From the IMG/VR virus record IMGVR_UViG_3300049459_000322, positions 1 to 32,409 of that record: DNA of 32,409 bases. One strand, given 5' to 3'. Below the pieces are notes generated by a model that was given only the letters and a program-made list of their open reading frames with translations, was not told the DNA's origin and did no database searches. Shown here piece after piece: positions 561 through 21,483 of the stretch (position 1 is its first letter; every line of letters starts with the position of its first letter). The position numbers and the translations under genes are program-made. The DNA is from a virus.

Positions 561-962
561 TTAGAGCTGATTCAAACACTGCTGGATAGGTATAGCTCGC
601 TCTTTGGCATACTCGAAACTGTCGAGCCTTGATTTCAAACTCTGCTCTGTAGCAATAAAATCGTTGAGCCTATACAAAGATACTCCCCTGAGATATCGCC
701 CCACGGCAATGGTCATATCTTTTTCACCCGTTTCGTTATACTCTCCACCGGAGGGTATCTTTCCTTGTAACTCAATATACTTCATAAAATTATTTATTAA
801 TGATTGAATGAAATTATCAATATCATTTGAATAAATAGAAAAAAACTCCCCTCGATGGCGATTATCTGGCCCGGGATAGTAATATTCTATTTCCCATCTA
901 GACTTATTAACCTTGAGTGTGCCACCACAAGGAAGTTTTTCCTGATAGAACTCATCATACAT
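561..962 (-). CDS. Hypothetical protein, 133 aa, distal gene of the lysogeny operon
   Basis: I do not recognise this protein. The N-terminal half is rich in aromatic and charged residues (KSRWEIEYYYPGP), and the C-terminal part is predicted mostly helical (LNDFIATEQSLKSRLDSFEYAKERAIPIQQCL). No signal peptide, membrane segment or metal-binding cluster is visible. The ATG at 962-960 has a weak GTGAG ribosome site just upstream. It lies 39 bases downstream of the WYL-like gene on the same strand and just before a terminator, so it is probably co-transcribed with the repressor in the lysogen. The local sequence is AT-rich compared with the late genes. By position it is a lysogenic-conversion or immunity candidate, which is inference only. 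Confidence 0.6.
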   Translation of the reverse strand: MYDEFYQEKLPCGGTLKVNKSRWEIEYYYPGPDNRHRGEFFSIYSNDIDNFIQSLINNFMKYIELQGKIPSGGEYNETGEKDMTIAVGRYLRGVSLYRLNDFIATEQSLKSRLDSFEYAKERAIPIQQCLNQL

Positions 963-1001: not shown

Positions 1002-1589
1002 TCAACTTTCTAACACAGCTGCCCATTCATATGGATCCATAGATTCACCAGTATCACGTACAATGATGTCACCCTCAATGCGGTCAAGCCGGAACGTCCT
1101 GAATTTACGGGCAGCATGACAGTAACCCTCAACGTACTGACCATCAAAACTTTTGACATCAACCTCACGGAACCGGCTTACGCCTTCAGCGTTCACATAA
1201 TTGAAAGCAACCTCATTTAAGCCTTTTGAATTTGAAGATTTTGCAAAGTTTTTGGAGCGATAAAACTGCTGAGTTTCGTCTTTTTCATCTTGATCATTAA
1301 AGAAACCTAGAGTGTCTTTATGTCCACCTGAAGCATCTAAATAGTTTTTTTTTGGTTCTTTATATCTGTAATTGCAATACAGCTGTATAACGCCGCCAAT
1401 CAGCAGCATTATTACTATCGCAGGCGATTGATTTTCATCATTAGCTGCTGAACCACCAGTAGCTAAGAAGTAAAAGCCGGCGAATAACGACTTAAAGAAT
1501 TTATTAGCATTGCTCTGCTGCTTTATACATATGCTGCGTACAGACCATGCACCTAAAATCAATCCTAATAGTGCTAATATTGTTGGCAT
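1002..1589 (-). CDS. Membrane-anchored WYL-like domain protein
   Basis: The 195-residue protein has a hydrophobic N-terminus (about residues 2-20), a second segment at about 56-73 (AIVIMLLIGGVIQLYC), a polar linker (80-122) and a C-terminal domain (126-180). That domain reads like a WYL domain: 'AFNYVNAEGVSRFREVDV' followed by 'YVEGYCHAARKFRTFRLDRI'. WYL domains bind ligands or nucleic acids and often regulate phage-defence loci; a membrane-tethered version suggests sensing near the inner membrane. It has a plausible ribosome site (GTAGGGAT) and starts 12 bases after the repressor stop, so the two are very likely co-transcribed. A role in superinfection exclusion or immunity is inferred only from position. 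Confidence 0.65.
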   Translation of the reverse strand: MPTILALLGLILGAWSVRSICIKQQSNANKFFKSLFAGFYFLATGGSAANDENQSPAIVIMLLIGGVIQLYCNYRYKEPKKNYLDASGGHKDTLGFFNDQDEKDETQQFYRSKNFAKSSNSKGLNEVAFNYVNAEGVSRFREVDVKSFDGQYVEGYCHAARKFRTFRLDRIEGDIIVRDTGESMDPYEWAAVLES

Positions 1590-8837: not shown

Positions 8838-10799
8838 ATGTATCTTAAGAGTATTAACATAGATAATGTCGGTGCTATTAAAAAGTTAATTATCGATTTA
8901 CCATTTAATAAAGATGGCAATCCTGAACCAATTATTCTGGTCGGAAGAAATGGTTCAGGAAAAACATTGGTGATGTCAAGCATACTTGATTCACTAATTC
9001 AAATAAAAAGAAATTTCTTCCAGGAAATACCTGAAGTTAAAGAAAACAATTTCTATAAAGCAGGTAAGAAAGATTACATTTCAACCGGCGAGTCATACAG
9101 TTTTATCAACTTTCAATATATTAAAACTGATACTTCCTTAATAACGTATAGAGATATCGCCACTCATACTCCCGCTGAAACAAGAACACTCCTTCAACAT
9201 TACGGCATTAATTTCCAGCACGACTTTGATGATAACGGATTTCATAGGGAGGTAGCTGGGGATTTTAAAGGTATTTTTGGAAGTGAACTCATTCTTTACT
9301 TTCCAGTGAATAGGTATTATTCCCCTGCATGGCTCGTCGAGAAAGATGATGTGAGAATCAAAACTACAGAGAAATATGTAGGCAAAGACAACAGTAACAT
9401 TATAAAAATGGATGTGATAAATGAAGTTGAGTCATGGATTTTAGATGTAATTTTAGATAGAAGTTTATATGAGCAACAAACAAAAATAACTCAACTTTAT
9501 GAAAAAAAAGGTGATTCCTATACATTAGTTAACATTCCTATGATGACATCCATACCAGGAAGAAATACTGGAATTGTCAATGAAATAAATAAAATATTGT
9601 TCACCATGCTAAAAGTAAAACTACCCGACATTGACTCTGCTCGATTCGGAATATCTTCAAAAGAAAGCGGCCGTAGAGTTTCTATTATAGTTGGTTCGGG
9701 TGGTGTTGAAACAACAATCGCTCCTACATTTAGTCATCTTTCCTCTGGAGAAACAATGATTGTCGCATTATTCTGCTCAATTATAAGAGACTATGACAAA
9801 ATAGGGAAAAGTAATTTATTAGACACAAAGGAAATAAGAGGATTAGTTGTAATTGATGAAATTGATTTAAATTTACACATAGAATACACAAAAGATGTCT
9901 TACCAGAAATGTTGAGGTTATTTCCTAAAATACAATTCATTATGACATCTCACTCGCCATTTTTCTTGGTAGGTATGAAGGAGGCTTTTGGTAGTAGTTA
10001 CACCGTCTTTAACATGCCAAATGGTGAGATAATTAATGAAAGCGATTTTAGCGAAATGAAGAAGGCATATAGCATATTTATAAAAGAGTTTGACGAATTT
10101 AGTGAAACTCTCGACAAGGTAAAGCTGGAGTTATTAAAAGGTGAAAATCCAATTATAGTTACTGAAGGTAAAACCGACTGGCGCCATATTAAAAATGCGC
10201 TCTACTCACTTCAAAGTAGAGGCGAATATTCTGAGATTAAAATCGATTTTCATGAATATGATGATGATTCATTTTCGGATTCTAAACTCAACACTTTTCT
10301 TGAAAATATTAAGCTCCTCAATAACAACAGAAAAATAATAGGTATATTCGATCGAGATGAAGGTCATGGAAAACAATATGCTAAAAACACTTTAAACGAA
10401 TTAGGGAATAACGTTTTTGCCGTTTCAATTCCACAACCTAATTTTCGCTCCTATCATGAAGGAGTGTGCATCGAGCTGATGTACAGAGATGAAGATCTTC
10501 TTCGCGAAGATGCTAATGGCAGAAGGATATACTTATCCAGTGAGTTCAATACAATCGGCAGGCTTGTTGATGATGTAACAATTGGAGTATCCAATGCATC
10601 TAAGACTAAAAGCTTCCTTTCAAAATCCAAAGAAAAGATTGTAGACTCAGAAGTCTATGATAATGAGTCCAATAGTTTAGCCCTGAGTAAAATTAATTTC
10701 GTAAGAGCGATTGAAAATAAAACCCCTCCCTTCGACCAAGTTGATATCAGTTCTTTCTCTCCATTATTCGATATTTTGCGAGAAATAATTCAGCGATAA
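8838..10799 (+). CDS. AAA ATPase + TOPRIM nuclease (OLD/PARIS-like anti-phage cargo)
   Basis: The 653-residue protein has an N-terminal ABC/SMC-type ATPase: Walker A GRNGSGKT (36-43), signature LSSGE (301-305), Walker B VVIDEID (337-343) and switch 'MTSHSPFF' (H372). The C-terminal part is TOPRIM-like: 'IIVTEGKTD' (439-447, E443), 'IGIFDRDEGHG' (501-511, D505/D507) and 'CIELMY' (544-549). This architecture is shared by OLD-family nucleases (P2 Old), Gabija GajA and, as separate genes, PARIS AriA/AriB (AAA + DUF4435). Here both parts are in one chain. The gene is far more AT-rich than the phage core, has its own leader and sits between cos and Q. Both are signs of a moron expressed in the lysogen, probably for defence against other phages. 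Confidence 0.82.
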   Translation: MYLKSINIDNVGAIKKLIIDLPFNKDGNPEPIILVGRNGSGKTLVMSSILDSLIQIKRNFFQEIPEVKENNFYKAGKKDYISTGESYSFINFQYIKTDTSLITYRDIATHTPAETRTLLQHYGINFQHDFDDNGFHREVAGDFKGIFGSELILYFPVNRYYSPAWLVEKDDVRIKTTEKYVGKDNSNIIKMDVINEVESWILDVILDRSLYEQQTKITQLYEKKGDSYTLVNIPMMTSIPGRNTGIVNEINKILFTMLKVKLPDIDSARFGISSKESGRRVSIIVGSGGVETTIAPTFSHLSSGETMIVALFCSIIRDYDKIGKSNLLDTKEIRGLVVIDEIDLNLHIEYTKDVLPEMLRLFPKIQFIMTSHSPFFLVGMKEAFGSSYTVFNMPNGEIINESDFSEMKKAYSIFIKEFDEFSETLDKVKLELLKGENPIIVTEGKTDWRHIKNALYSLQSRGEYSEIKIDFHEYDDDSFSDSKLNTFLENIKLLNNNRKIIGIFDRDEGHGKQYAKNTLNELGNNVFAVSIPQPNFRSYHEGVCIELMYRDEDLLREDANGRRIYLSSEFNTIGRLVDDVTIGVSNASKTKSFLSKSKEKIVDSEVYDNESNSLALSKINFVRAIENKTPPFDQVDISSFSPLFDILREIIQR

Positions 10800-18656: not shown

Positions 18657-19053
18657 CAGCCTGAATATGTTCGTGGACAGCGGGCGCATTGTCTCAACGC
18701 TTGCCGCTTCGCTGTCCTTTGAGGATCAGTATCAGCTCAATCTCGTTATCACCGATTATCCCGGTAACGTTGATTTGCTGATTGTGCCGGTACTGGCCTG
18801 GCTGCGTCAGAATCAGCCCGATATTATGGCAACCGAAGACAAGCGCAGGACGGGCTTCACACATGAGGTGGATATAATCAGCGACACCCTGATCGATATC
18901 AGTATTAAGCTGCAGCTCACCGAGCGCGTGATTGTACGGCAGGTGGATAGCGCCCTGCACGTTGACCGCGTGCCTGAGCCGCCGCTGCCTGATAACGATG
19001 ATGCACCCAAACAGCTCTTTCTTGCCGGTCAGCTGATCAGTGAGTGGCAGTAA
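18589..19053 (+). CDS. R: Tail completion protein gpR
   Basis: The protein is 154 residues from the ATG at 18589 (P2 gpR is 155). 'MLKPAQLRKVLTDCVPHLQINPDSLNMFVDSGRIVSTLAASLSFEDQYQLNLVITDYPGN' and 'LLIVPVLAWLRQNQPDIMATED' match the P2 protein directly. It acts in tail completion and head joining. An AGGAGG-type site (CCAGGAGGAAC) precedes this start; the ORF extends to 18556 but the extra residues have no family match. The stop overlaps the S start (TAATG). Confidence 0.94.
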   Translation: MLKPAQLRKVLTDCVPHLQINPDSLNMFVDSGRIVSTLAASLSFEDQYQLNLVITDYPGNVDLLIVPVLAWLRQNQPDIMATEDKRRTGFTHEVDIISDTLIDISIKLQLTERVIVRQVDSALHVDRVPEPPLPDNDDAPKQLFLAGQLISEWQ

Positions 19054-19502
19054 TGGACGGGCTGCAAGCTTTTGATGACCGCCTGTCGGCACTGATTAAC
19101 AACCTCTCCCCGCAGTCGCGTAAACAGATGGCCGCTGCCATTGCGAAACGCCTGCGTGCCAGTCAGCAACAGAACATTAAACGCCAGCAGGCGCCGGACG
19201 GCACCCCGTACAAACCCCGCAAGCGCCAACCCCTGCGCGGCAAAAAAGGCCGGGTAAAGCGTGAGATGTTCACGAAACTCCGTACCGCAAAAAACCTCAA
19301 GGCGAAAGGCAACAGCGATGATGCTGCCGTGCAGTTTACCGGGAACGTGCAGCGCATGGCCCGCGTGCATCATTACGGGCTACGGGATAGGGCAAGCCGG
19401 GGCGGCAAAGAGGTGCAGTATGAGGCCCGCCCGCTTCTGGGTTTCAATGAGGCCGATATTGAAATGATTGAGCGCGAAGTGATTGCCCGCTTGGGCAATT
19501 AA
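19053..19502 (+). CDS. S: Tail completion protein gpS
   Basis: The protein is 149 residues long (P2 gpS is 150). It opens 'MDGLQAFDDRLSALINNLSPQSRKQMAAAIAKRLRASQQQNIKRQQAPDGTPYKPRKRQ' and contains 'MFTKLRTAKNLKAKG' and 'VARVHHYGL'-type residues of the Mu-gpG/P2-gpS virion morphogenesis family. It is basic and helical. In P2 the next gene is V on the same strand; here a leftward two-gene cassette begins only 10 bases after the S stop. Confidence 0.94.
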   Translation: MDGLQAFDDRLSALINNLSPQSRKQMAAAIAKRLRASQQQNIKRQQAPDGTPYKPRKRQPLRGKKGRVKREMFTKLRTAKNLKAKGNSDDAAVQFTGNVQRMARVHHYGLRDRASRGGKEVQYEARPLLGFNEADIEMIEREVIARLGN

Positions 19503-19512
19503 TTTGAAGTGA

Positions 19513-20274
19513 TCAATTCACATCTATACCTTTTATATTAAGCACAACCGACTGGTACTTATCAGGGGCTGGGGCATCTTGCCCCTCTACCCTTTCGCGG
19601 CTGAATACATCGATCATATATCCATCTTTATCGTGGCGTGTATTTATGATGCATCTTCTGTCGCGTGGGAACTCCACCAATGCCATATGGTTAACTTCTA
19701 AAATCTCCCTATCAACCCTTTGGCAATATATACCATCATAAATGCACTCTTCAACATGCTCACACAAAATGAATGACAATGAGCAGACTGAACAAACTCC
19801 AATGCTTTCAATCATCCCAGGACTGTTAAACAAAGCATGCTTAGGGAATAGAAGGTTTGCAAAATTTTCTGTGGTCATGTAAAGCCCATCCAATCCGTGA
19901 CTTTCACCCTCATTTATCGGTGGATATTTCTTCATAAAGCTTGTGCATACTTTAAGATAATCTTCTGCATCAATCAATGAAGCCCATGCTTTATGGTTAT
20001 CTTCTTCCTTTAAATACAAAACAACTTTATATAAAGAAAGCAATGAGGAAAGGACGCATTGGAAATAAAGGATTTTGTCAGCTCCATGACCATACCCTCT
20101 TTCAATGGCTTGTTGCTTATATTGTTTAATGCCTCCAATTGAAAAAGTTAAAGCTTCAATCCATCTCCTCACAATTATTTTCGATGTAGTGATCTGCAAA
20201 TCATTAAAGGCGTCCTTAGACACCTCCGTAACTTCCAGCTCAATATCATCTAAATTAACTTTTTTACTTCCCAT
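19513..20274 (-). CDS. Unknown cassette protein with a Cys/His cluster (253 aa)
   Basis: I do not recognise this protein. Residues about 20-116 are predicted helical (SKIIVRRWIEALTFSIGG, LSSLLSLYKVVLYLKE, DAEDYLKVCTSFMKKY). Residues 161-184 carry a compact Cys/His cluster, C-x2-C-x6-C-x-H-x3-C-x6-C (CSVCSLSFILCEH then YDGIYC), which looks metal-binding. It is followed by 'EVNHMALVEFPRDRRCII', like a short beta domain. No membrane segment or signal is seen. The gene is strongly AT-rich, points against the late operon, and its ATG overlaps the end of the upstream partner by 11 bases. That fits a moron expressed from its own promoter in the lysogen. A defence or exclusion role is inference. Confidence 0.75.
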   Translation of the reverse strand: MGSKKVNLDDIELEVTEVSKDAFNDLQITTSKIIVRRWIEALTFSIGGIKQYKQQAIERGYGHGADKILYFQCVLSSLLSLYKVVLYLKEEDNHKAWASLIDAEDYLKVCTSFMKKYPPINEGESHGLDGLYMTTENFANLLFPKHALFNSPGMIESIGVCSVCSLSFILCEHVEECIYDGIYCQRVDREILEVNHMALVEFPRDRRCIINTRHDKDGYMIDVFSRERVEGQDAPAPDKYQSVVLNIKGIDVN

Positions 20275-20722
20275 TAATTACTCCTTTTAGGACTGACTTG
20301 ATTTCTTTTAAACCTTCCACTCCCCCTTCATAACTTAACTCTGTTTTCTTTGTTTCGTTGGATTCTTCGCAAATAATCCTCAAGCGCACCAATGCAGCTT
20401 CATCTTTTTTTGTTATTCTAGTTGCACAAATCTTAACGGCATCAATTATTAAGTCAAATATGTCAGGGTTGTTTTGGACTATGTTTGCAGCTAAATAGAG
20501 AATTGGACCAAACCATTCACTACTTCTTTGCTCGATTAAGGCTTTGGGCGGGGTCAAAAATTCAACTGGCAGGGTATTTTTTAGTTCTTTGTGAAAACTT
20601 AGCGCAGTTGAAGTATAAGCTGAATCTTCTAATGAGTGCCAAAATGTATCTGGGATAATGAGCACACTTTGCACTGCGTCTTTATCAATAGCTAACTCGC
20701 AGGGTTTCATTTCAATTTTCAT
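20264..20722 (-). CDS. Unknown cassette protein, partner of the 253-aa protein (152 aa)
   Basis: This is the first gene of the leftward AT-rich cassette. The N-terminal half (1-66) has no recognisable motif. Residues 70-103 form hydrophobic helices (WFGPILYLAANIVQNNPDIFDLIIDAVKICATRI). A beta-hairpin-like stretch follows (ALVRLRIICEE...TELSYEGGVEGLKEIKSVLKGVI). That helix-hairpin-helix end is reminiscent of small adaptor-like domains attached to defence proteins, but I cannot name a family. A GAAGG site lies about 10 bases before the ATG. The 11-base overlap with the downstream gene implies translational coupling, so the two proteins probably work together. Confidence 0.72.
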   Translation of the reverse strand: MKIEMKPCELAIDKDAVQSVLIIPDTFWHSLEDSAYTSTALSFHKELKNTLPVEFLTPPKALIEQRSSEWFGPILYLAANIVQNNPDIFDLIIDAVKICATRITKKDEAALVRLRIICEESNETKKTELSYEGGVEGLKEIKSVLKGVINGK

Positions 20723-20777
20723 TTTATTAAGCCTTCAATTGTTGACGAAAGTACTCTTATAGCATTTCAAAGGAAAG

Positions 20778-20799
20778 GTTGTGTAGTGTGCCAGCAACA
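20778..20799 (+). promoter_or_regulatory. Candidate Ogr-activator box for the V operon
   Basis: The stretch GTTGTG(N9)AGCAACA shares the GTTGTG and AGCAA ends with the box before O. If Ogr binds about 55 bases before the start, the transcript would begin near 20846, practically at the V start codon, so either the spacing differs or V is nearly leaderless. CATAAT at 20835-20840 fits a -10 for that start. Confidence 0.35.
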
Positions 20800-20844
20800 T
20801 CATTTCACTGTAATGCGTAGCCAATTTCAAGTCATCATAATGTG

Positions 20845-21483
20845 ATGAACAGTGAAAATTTTGCAGAAATCCAGCGCTTGCTGCGCAACCTAATCCGCAT
20901 CGGAACCGTCACCTCCGTTGATTTAGACGGCGGGCTTTGTCGCGTGCAGACCGGAGCAAATGAAACCGACTTGCTCAACTGGCTGACATCAAGTGCCGGG
21001 CGGGTAAGGCGCTGGCATGCGCCGTCTGTTGGTGAGCAGGTTCTTATTCTGTCGCTTGGCGGTGAGCTGGATTCCGCGTTTGTACTGCCCGGCATTTTTT
21101 CCGACGAACACCCGGCGCCCTCAGCCTCTGCCGACGCTGTTCACATCAGCTTTCCTGACGGCGCGGTGATTGAGTACGAGCCGGAAACCGGAGCGCTCAC
21201 CGCAACGGGCATGCAAACCGCCACGGTGCAGGCGGCTGAATCGGTCAGCGTGACGACAAAGGTTGTGCTTGTTACTGCCAGCGAAAAAATCACCCTTGAT
21301 ACGCCAGTGGTTGAATGCACCAACCTCTTAAAGACTGCAACTCTTGAAGTAACCAAAGGGGGCAAAATGACTGGCAATGTTGAACATAGCGGCGGCAGCT
21401 TAAGCTCTAACGGCGTTATCGTTGACCATCACGATCATGGTGGCGTGCAGCGCGGCGGCAGTAGAACGGACGGCCCGCAATGA
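20845..21483 (+). CDS. V: Baseplate spike protein gpV
   Basis: The protein is 212 residues from ATG (P2 gpV is 211). It has an N-terminal OB-fold (IGTVTSVDLDGGLCRVQTG...GEQVLILSLGGELDSAFVLPGIFSD), then the beta-helix shaft, and a C-terminal iron-binding tip 'HHDHGGVQRGG'. P2 gpV carries a similar H-x-H tip and forms the membrane-piercing spike. A GTG three bases upstream is also possible. No Shine-Dalgarno sequence is visible before either start (CATCATAATGTG), unlike the other late genes. This may be a result of the cassette inserted just upstream. Confidence 0.95.
   Translation: MNSENFAEIQRLLRNLIRIGTVTSVDLDGGLCRVQTGANETDLLNWLTSSAGRVRRWHAPSVGEQVLILSLGGELDSAFVLPGIFSDEHPAPSASADAVHISFPDGAVIEYEPETGALTATGMQTATVQAAESVSVTTKVVLVTASEKITLDTPVVECTNLLKTATLEVTKGGKMTGNVEHSGGSLSSNGVIVDHHDHGGVQRGGSRTDGPQ

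Follow-up and report, generated by a model that had tools for sequence, protein, structure and literature searches.

The locus described here raises a simple question: what are two small AT-rich genes doing between the tail genes S and V of a P2-like prophage, on the strand opposite to the late operon? The window, i.e. the whole stretch of 32,409 nucleotides (32.4 kb) analyzed here, is a virus record that represents a P2-like prophage of Mixta. We examined the cassette itself, the site in which it resides, its relatives in other genomes and the functions that the two genes may serve.

Structure and composition of the cassette

As the preliminary description of this DNA had reported, two overlapping leftward ORFs lie between S and V. 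Gene A (20264..20722, minus strand; 152 aa) is the first gene of the pair, with homologues that likewise lie directly upstream of B, while gene B (19513..20274, minus strand; 253 aa) encodes a zinc-type Cys/His protein, delineated by its ORF and by residues invariant among its members; A runs 11 bases into B (20264..20274, minus strand), also as described. Both flanking genes are intact, with gpS on the left (19044..19502, plus strand; Phage_tail_S 3e-36) and gpV on the right (20842..21483, plus strand; Phage_base_V 4e-15 and Phage_spike 2e-26). The drop in GC noted earlier was borne out, at 0.37-0.38 for A and B vs. 0.56-0.58 for S and V, and GC3 shows the same trend (0.33-0.36 vs. 0.59-0.67 in the flanking genes). 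A second copy of the cassette, 98% identical, is present in Mixta theicola QC88-366; comparison of the two Mixta copies gives a pN/pS of 0.13 in A and 0.08 in B, similar to that of gpS (0.12). Both genes are under purifying selection, and we therefore regard them as genuine genes encoding functional proteins rather than as decayed DNA.

With regard to signals, an AGGAG ribosome-binding site for B can be read directly from the sequence inside gene A (20281..20285, minus strand). Upstream of A, the sequence contains a putative extended -10-like promoter (TGCTATAAG; 20756..20764, minus strand), with the promoter scan as a whole at chance level (3 sites vs. 4.2 expected in shuffles). To the right of the cassette, a TGT-N12-ACA box (20782..20799, plus strand) matches the place of the P2 pV late activator (Ogr) site, an assignment made by position, as the count of this pattern is weak (8 in the window vs. 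6.3 expected). To the left, a 9-bp hairpin at the gpS end (19480..19501, plus strand; fold z = -3.3) is located where P2 has its O-operon terminator, and the P2 annotation has a terminator between S and orf30. With a hairpin on its left and an activator-like box on its right, the insert appears to sit between two late operons, both of which should stay working.

The S-V gap as a cargo site

The premise that S is followed directly by V in P2 proved to be wrong, as P2 itself carries the nonessential leftward orf30 between these two genes; a leftward AT-rich insert at this place is thus the P2 arrangement itself. The orf30 place has been recognized as one of three regions with foreign genes in P2-like phages (PMC3091744), and phage R18C has a different 741-bp ORF there (PMC6823313). 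The expectation that the cargo at this position would vary among P2-like phages was confirmed, with the gap either empty or occupied by unrelated tenants. It is empty in Erwinia phage ENT90, as found with the joined flanks of the window as query, and, judged by span, in PSP3, 186 and others. Among 5426 E. coli genomes, 1650 matched the P2 flanks; in a survey of 60 rows spread over the ranking of these matches, 55 had both flanks, with 35 empty gaps, 16 inserts of orf30 length (the one that was read is 84% identical to orf30) and 4 of other lengths.

Altogether, at least seven unrelated AT-rich families, A-B included, have taken up residence between S and V. The contents read comprise orf30, a family of 347-354 aa, single proteins of 247 aa and 246 aa, the latter encoded rightward, a pentapeptide protein, a type VI retron and A-B; the protein-coding inserts that were measured all have a GC of 30-38%, and by blastp the inserts are mutually unrelated except within the orf30 family and within the 347-354 aa family. 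The retron of Yersinia phage vB_YenM_56.17 is a recognized defence type (RT_VI 2.6e-104, HTH_VI 6e-36), its HTH_VI + RT_VI pair being read rightward at L025 5915-7139. From the gap being empty or filled with interchangeable unrelated inserts, one of them a known defence type, we conclude that S-V is a true cargo site.

Two of the other tenants deserve mention in their own right. The 347-354 aa family, with members in E. coli and in two Yersinia P2-like phages (L047 972-2015, L024 2396-3460 and L026 5403-6464), is another undescribed cargo, with 37-42% identity and no match to Pfam or PADLOC for the two Yersinia members. The 246-aa rightward cargo of E. coli JNEC-KY180 (L048 887-1627) has an N-terminal part that looks HNH-nuclease-like by eye (CVLCGSSDDITREHIIPQW).

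In comparison with these tenants, A-B resembles orf30 and the other S-V cargo in position, AT-richness, mostly leftward orientation and the character of a nonessential-type insert that leaves the late operon unbroken, but shares no sequence similarity with them; moreover, the cargos that were read are single genes except for the retron, whereas A-B comprises two genes and has relatives beyond the P2-like phages. The type VI retron is likewise compact and AT-rich and resides in the same gap; however, it has a reverse transcriptase and an HTH protein, and A-B has neither. Two defence places have been well studied in P2-like phages, A-Q (old/tin) and G-FI (fun(Z)) (PMC9122126, PMC9519451). Like A-B, old/tin and fun(Z) are cargo of P2-like prophages at fixed variable places, but they occupy other sites, encode unrelated proteins and have a tested exclusion function. 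With a retron among its unrelated AT-rich inserts, the S-V (orf30) gap is a third place, in addition to A-Q and G-FI, where defence genes of P2-like prophages may be sought.

Pairing, relatives and protein features

Relatives of A-B were sought by translated and profile searches, and they extend well beyond P2-like phages. A P2-like prophage of E. coli SA53-3 carries the pair at another position, with int on one side and the host gene yfiB on the other (L001 7934-9167); in two relatives, nothing separates int from yfiB, and this place can thus also take cargo. Other copies were found in several Enterobacterales including Erwiniaceae, on an Acinetobacter plasmid, in Rhizobium and a Rhizobiales bacterium, on a Haloterrigena plasmid, in another haloarchaeon, and in the archaeal pleolipovirus Humcor2 as well as its host Halorubrum coriense. 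In the Halorubrum virus Humcor2, the genes HrrHm2_025 and HrrHm2_020 (annotated as 'CxxC motif protein') constitute a homologous A-B pair, which is only ~25% identical to that of the window and belongs to a tailless archaeal pleolipovirus (PMC7911831). The pair is rare, being present in 4 of 395 Enterobacterales genomes, 3 of 292 Halobacteria, 1 of 397 for the Rhizobiales order and 4 of 198 Erwiniaceae (centre genomes counted), and searches of viral contigs with divergent relatives as queries yielded nothing further.

Despite this divergence, with pairwise identity falling to ~10% for A and ~16% for B, the two genes have stayed together. Both ends are in the sequence for 13 divergent loci, which come from a pleolipovirus of archaea, haloarchaea, Rhizobiales, and the prophages, chromosomes and plasmids of gammaproteobacteria. 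Every one of them has A immediately upstream of B in the same orientation, with an overlap of 1-65 bases in 11 and a 17-base gap in 2, and in all 13 the GC of the pair is below that of the rest of the locus. With an A profile run over the 198 Erwiniaceae genomes, A was found only in genomes with B, and the only B that lacks an A is cut off where its contig ends. The distances of A and B are correlated in a mirror-tree comparison (r = 0.84), a value reached in none of 10000 permutations. A and B are an inseparable pair across bacteria and archaea, an association that is new here.

Twelve residues of B are invariant in the 13 members, namely W97, P144, S151, C161, C164, C171, H173, Y179, G181, C184, V200 and P203. 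From the alignments, the invariant Cys/His cluster spans codons 161-184 (19723..19794, minus strand) with the pattern CxxC-x6-CxH-x5-YxGxxC. Of the cluster originally listed for B, C161, C164, C171, H173 and C184 hold in every member while C177 is not conserved, leaving five conserved potential ligands; read from its sequence pattern, the cluster would most simply be a zinc site. A second branch of B (G200, Acinetobacter and the Erwiniaceae genome G1399) has an extra C-terminal cysteine-rich motif that is SEC-C-like. The likeness to SEC-C motif proteins is confined to this branch; the B of the window is devoid of such a motif, and its Cys/His cluster is distinct from SEC-C. The A proteins of the same branch contain a segment of strong hydrophobicity, with a mean hydropathy of 2.0-2.2 over 19 residues; the A of the window has no such segment (0.92).

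Neither protein matches a family in Pfam, PHROGs, NCBIfam or PADLOC, and as to known defence systems in particular, none of the models in PADLOC-DB 2.0.0 is matched by A or B. When each member was scanned against Pfam, the sole results were a weak SEC-C match (0.007) within one branch of B and matches at the level of chance, such as HEPN_AbiV (0.17); profile searches of the PDB likewise returned only chance matches. AlphaFold2 models built from four sequences are poor, with a mean pLDDT of 46.5 for B and 52.6 for A; they suggest that B may have a helical N-terminal half and a strand-rich C-terminal half bearing the Cys/His residues, and that A may be ordered as strand, helices, two strands and helix. 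The helix-hairpin-helix end that had been assigned to A was abandoned, as there is no domain match, conservation in this part is essentially limited to Y131 and G133, and the model, which is of low confidence, has a strand-strand-helix at that end. The Foldseek comparison of both poor models with the PDB, which the preliminary description had recommended, gave no match with an E below 0.58. In view of the low pLDDT and this outcome, we claim no fold or activity for A or B.

Possible functions of the pair

Taken on its own, the company that the relatives keep, with neighbour genes picked by eye, is a suggestive pointer to defence for several copies. An OLD nuclease (1.8e-56) and AbiEii are found beside the A-B relative on the Acinetobacter plasmid; in G1399, an FRG-domain PDC-S15 is located directly upstream of the pair (1.7e-99); G1451 has an LmuA-like protein beside it (2.5e-7); and an SLFN_AlbA_2 neighbour is common to G033 and the Rhizobiales copy, the latter with a PIN_12 and a PD-lambda-4-like protein (1.7e-5) as well. 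Within the sequence read, no defence gene adjoins the G348, E. coli and Humcor2 copies, and that of G348 is among ordinary chromosomal genes without an evident mobile element. As a side observation, the Acinetobacter plasmid p7SAAs470 (L027, 8.8 kb) amounts to a tiny defence-type island, with RelB/YafQ toxin-antitoxin, AbiEii, an OLD-like nuclease and the A-B relative.

An obligate, AT-rich and mobile pair that occurs across two domains, in their viruses, plasmids and islands, and that shares a site with a retron, best fits an anti-phage or exclusion function. We therefore lean towards the view that A-B, housed in the orf30 (S-V) gap as lysogenic-conversion cargo, is a self-contained and mobile module of two components that acts against phages or excludes them. 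A stronger formulation, to which we would give somewhat less than an even chance, is that A-B represents an undescribed two-protein antiviral system of bacteria and archaea, in viruses of both domains, in which a zinc-bearing protein of new fold works with an obligate partner and which is unrelated to every catalogued defence family. The earlier proposal of a functional pair that might form an undescribed defence or exclusion system is thus partly supported, by the pairing, the interchangeable cargo and the defence-type neighbours, although its P2 premise and the helix-hairpin-helix claim have fallen away.

Other explanations have to be weighed against this reading. A toxin-antitoxin or addiction pair, in which A neutralizes B or the reverse and thereby retains the prophage or plasmid, with any anti-phage effect being secondary, would account for a small gene placed first and overlapping a larger gene with its own ribosome-binding site, as well as for the occurrence of the pair on plasmids, prophages and islands; we nevertheless consider it unlikely, since neither protein matches a toxin or antitoxin family, both are larger than typical type II pairs, no catalytic motif is recognizable and the pair is present in a pleolipovirus. 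Less probable still is a counter-defence or take-over module that shields the mobile element from the restriction or immunity of its host, or adjusts transcription in the host. The occurrence of the pair in widely differing hosts, on viruses, plasmids and prophages alike, together with a zinc-type motif that may be compatible with nucleic acid binding, would be in keeping with such a role, but the pair also resides on chromosomes without an evident element (G348), and the P2-like copies are positioned at lysogenic-conversion sites and not among early genes.

We attach little credence to another phage-independent conversion function, such as stress response, metabolism or host regulation. Non-defence genes do occur among the cargo at P2-like variable sites (PMC9122126), and partition genes and a toxin are reported for the A-Q site (Rousset 2022, PMC9122126); however, the relatives of A-B have defence-type neighbours, and a low GC combined with occurrence in both bacteria and archaea typifies conflict genes. 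That the pair aids tail assembly of this phage, as its location among tail genes might imply, is hardly credible: it is on the strand opposite to the late operon, it is missing from most P2-like phages, where the S-V gap is empty, and a tailless virus of archaea is among the carriers of its relatives, as are plasmids and chromosomes. As homologues are not confined to tailed phages with a place in the late operon, we rejected a virion factor on distribution; the structural matches to virion assembly factors that could have spoken against defence did not appear for A or B, a weak test in view of the poor models.

Returning to an anti-phage or exclusion module, we surmise that A-B would most likely shield the lysogen from other phages and, in doing so, the prophage as well. 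One leftward mRNA from its own promoter would encode both proteins while the late operon is silent, and translation of B from the site inside A may set the A:B ratio. A and B would work as a complex, with the putative zinc-binding C-terminal half of B recognizing a nucleic acid or protein that is produced in the course of infection, and with A either keeping B inactive or coupling B to its target until infection occurs. Upon infection, the complex would then stop the phage from growing, probably in an abortive manner that sacrifices the cell. Were the defence reading true, the catalogues would have overlooked a compact system of two genes whose homologues occur in prophages of tailed phages, an archaeal pleolipovirus, plasmids and chromosomes.

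Three other genes of the window merit a comment. Next to an HTH repressor-like gene at the left end, there are a 133-aa protein (561-962, minus strand), without a match in Pfam or PADLOC, and a 195-aa protein (1002-1589, minus strand) with a partial WYL domain (8e-6). Between the replication gene A and the portal gene Q resides a 653-aa AAA ATPase (8838-10799, plus strand; GC ~33%), in which a C-terminal stretch resembles the TOPRIM end of type I-C retron proteins (PADLOC 2e-31), with a likeness to PtuA-like ATPase as well (2e-27); judging from these matches, it is a second, separate defence-type gene, located at the classic P2 hotspot.
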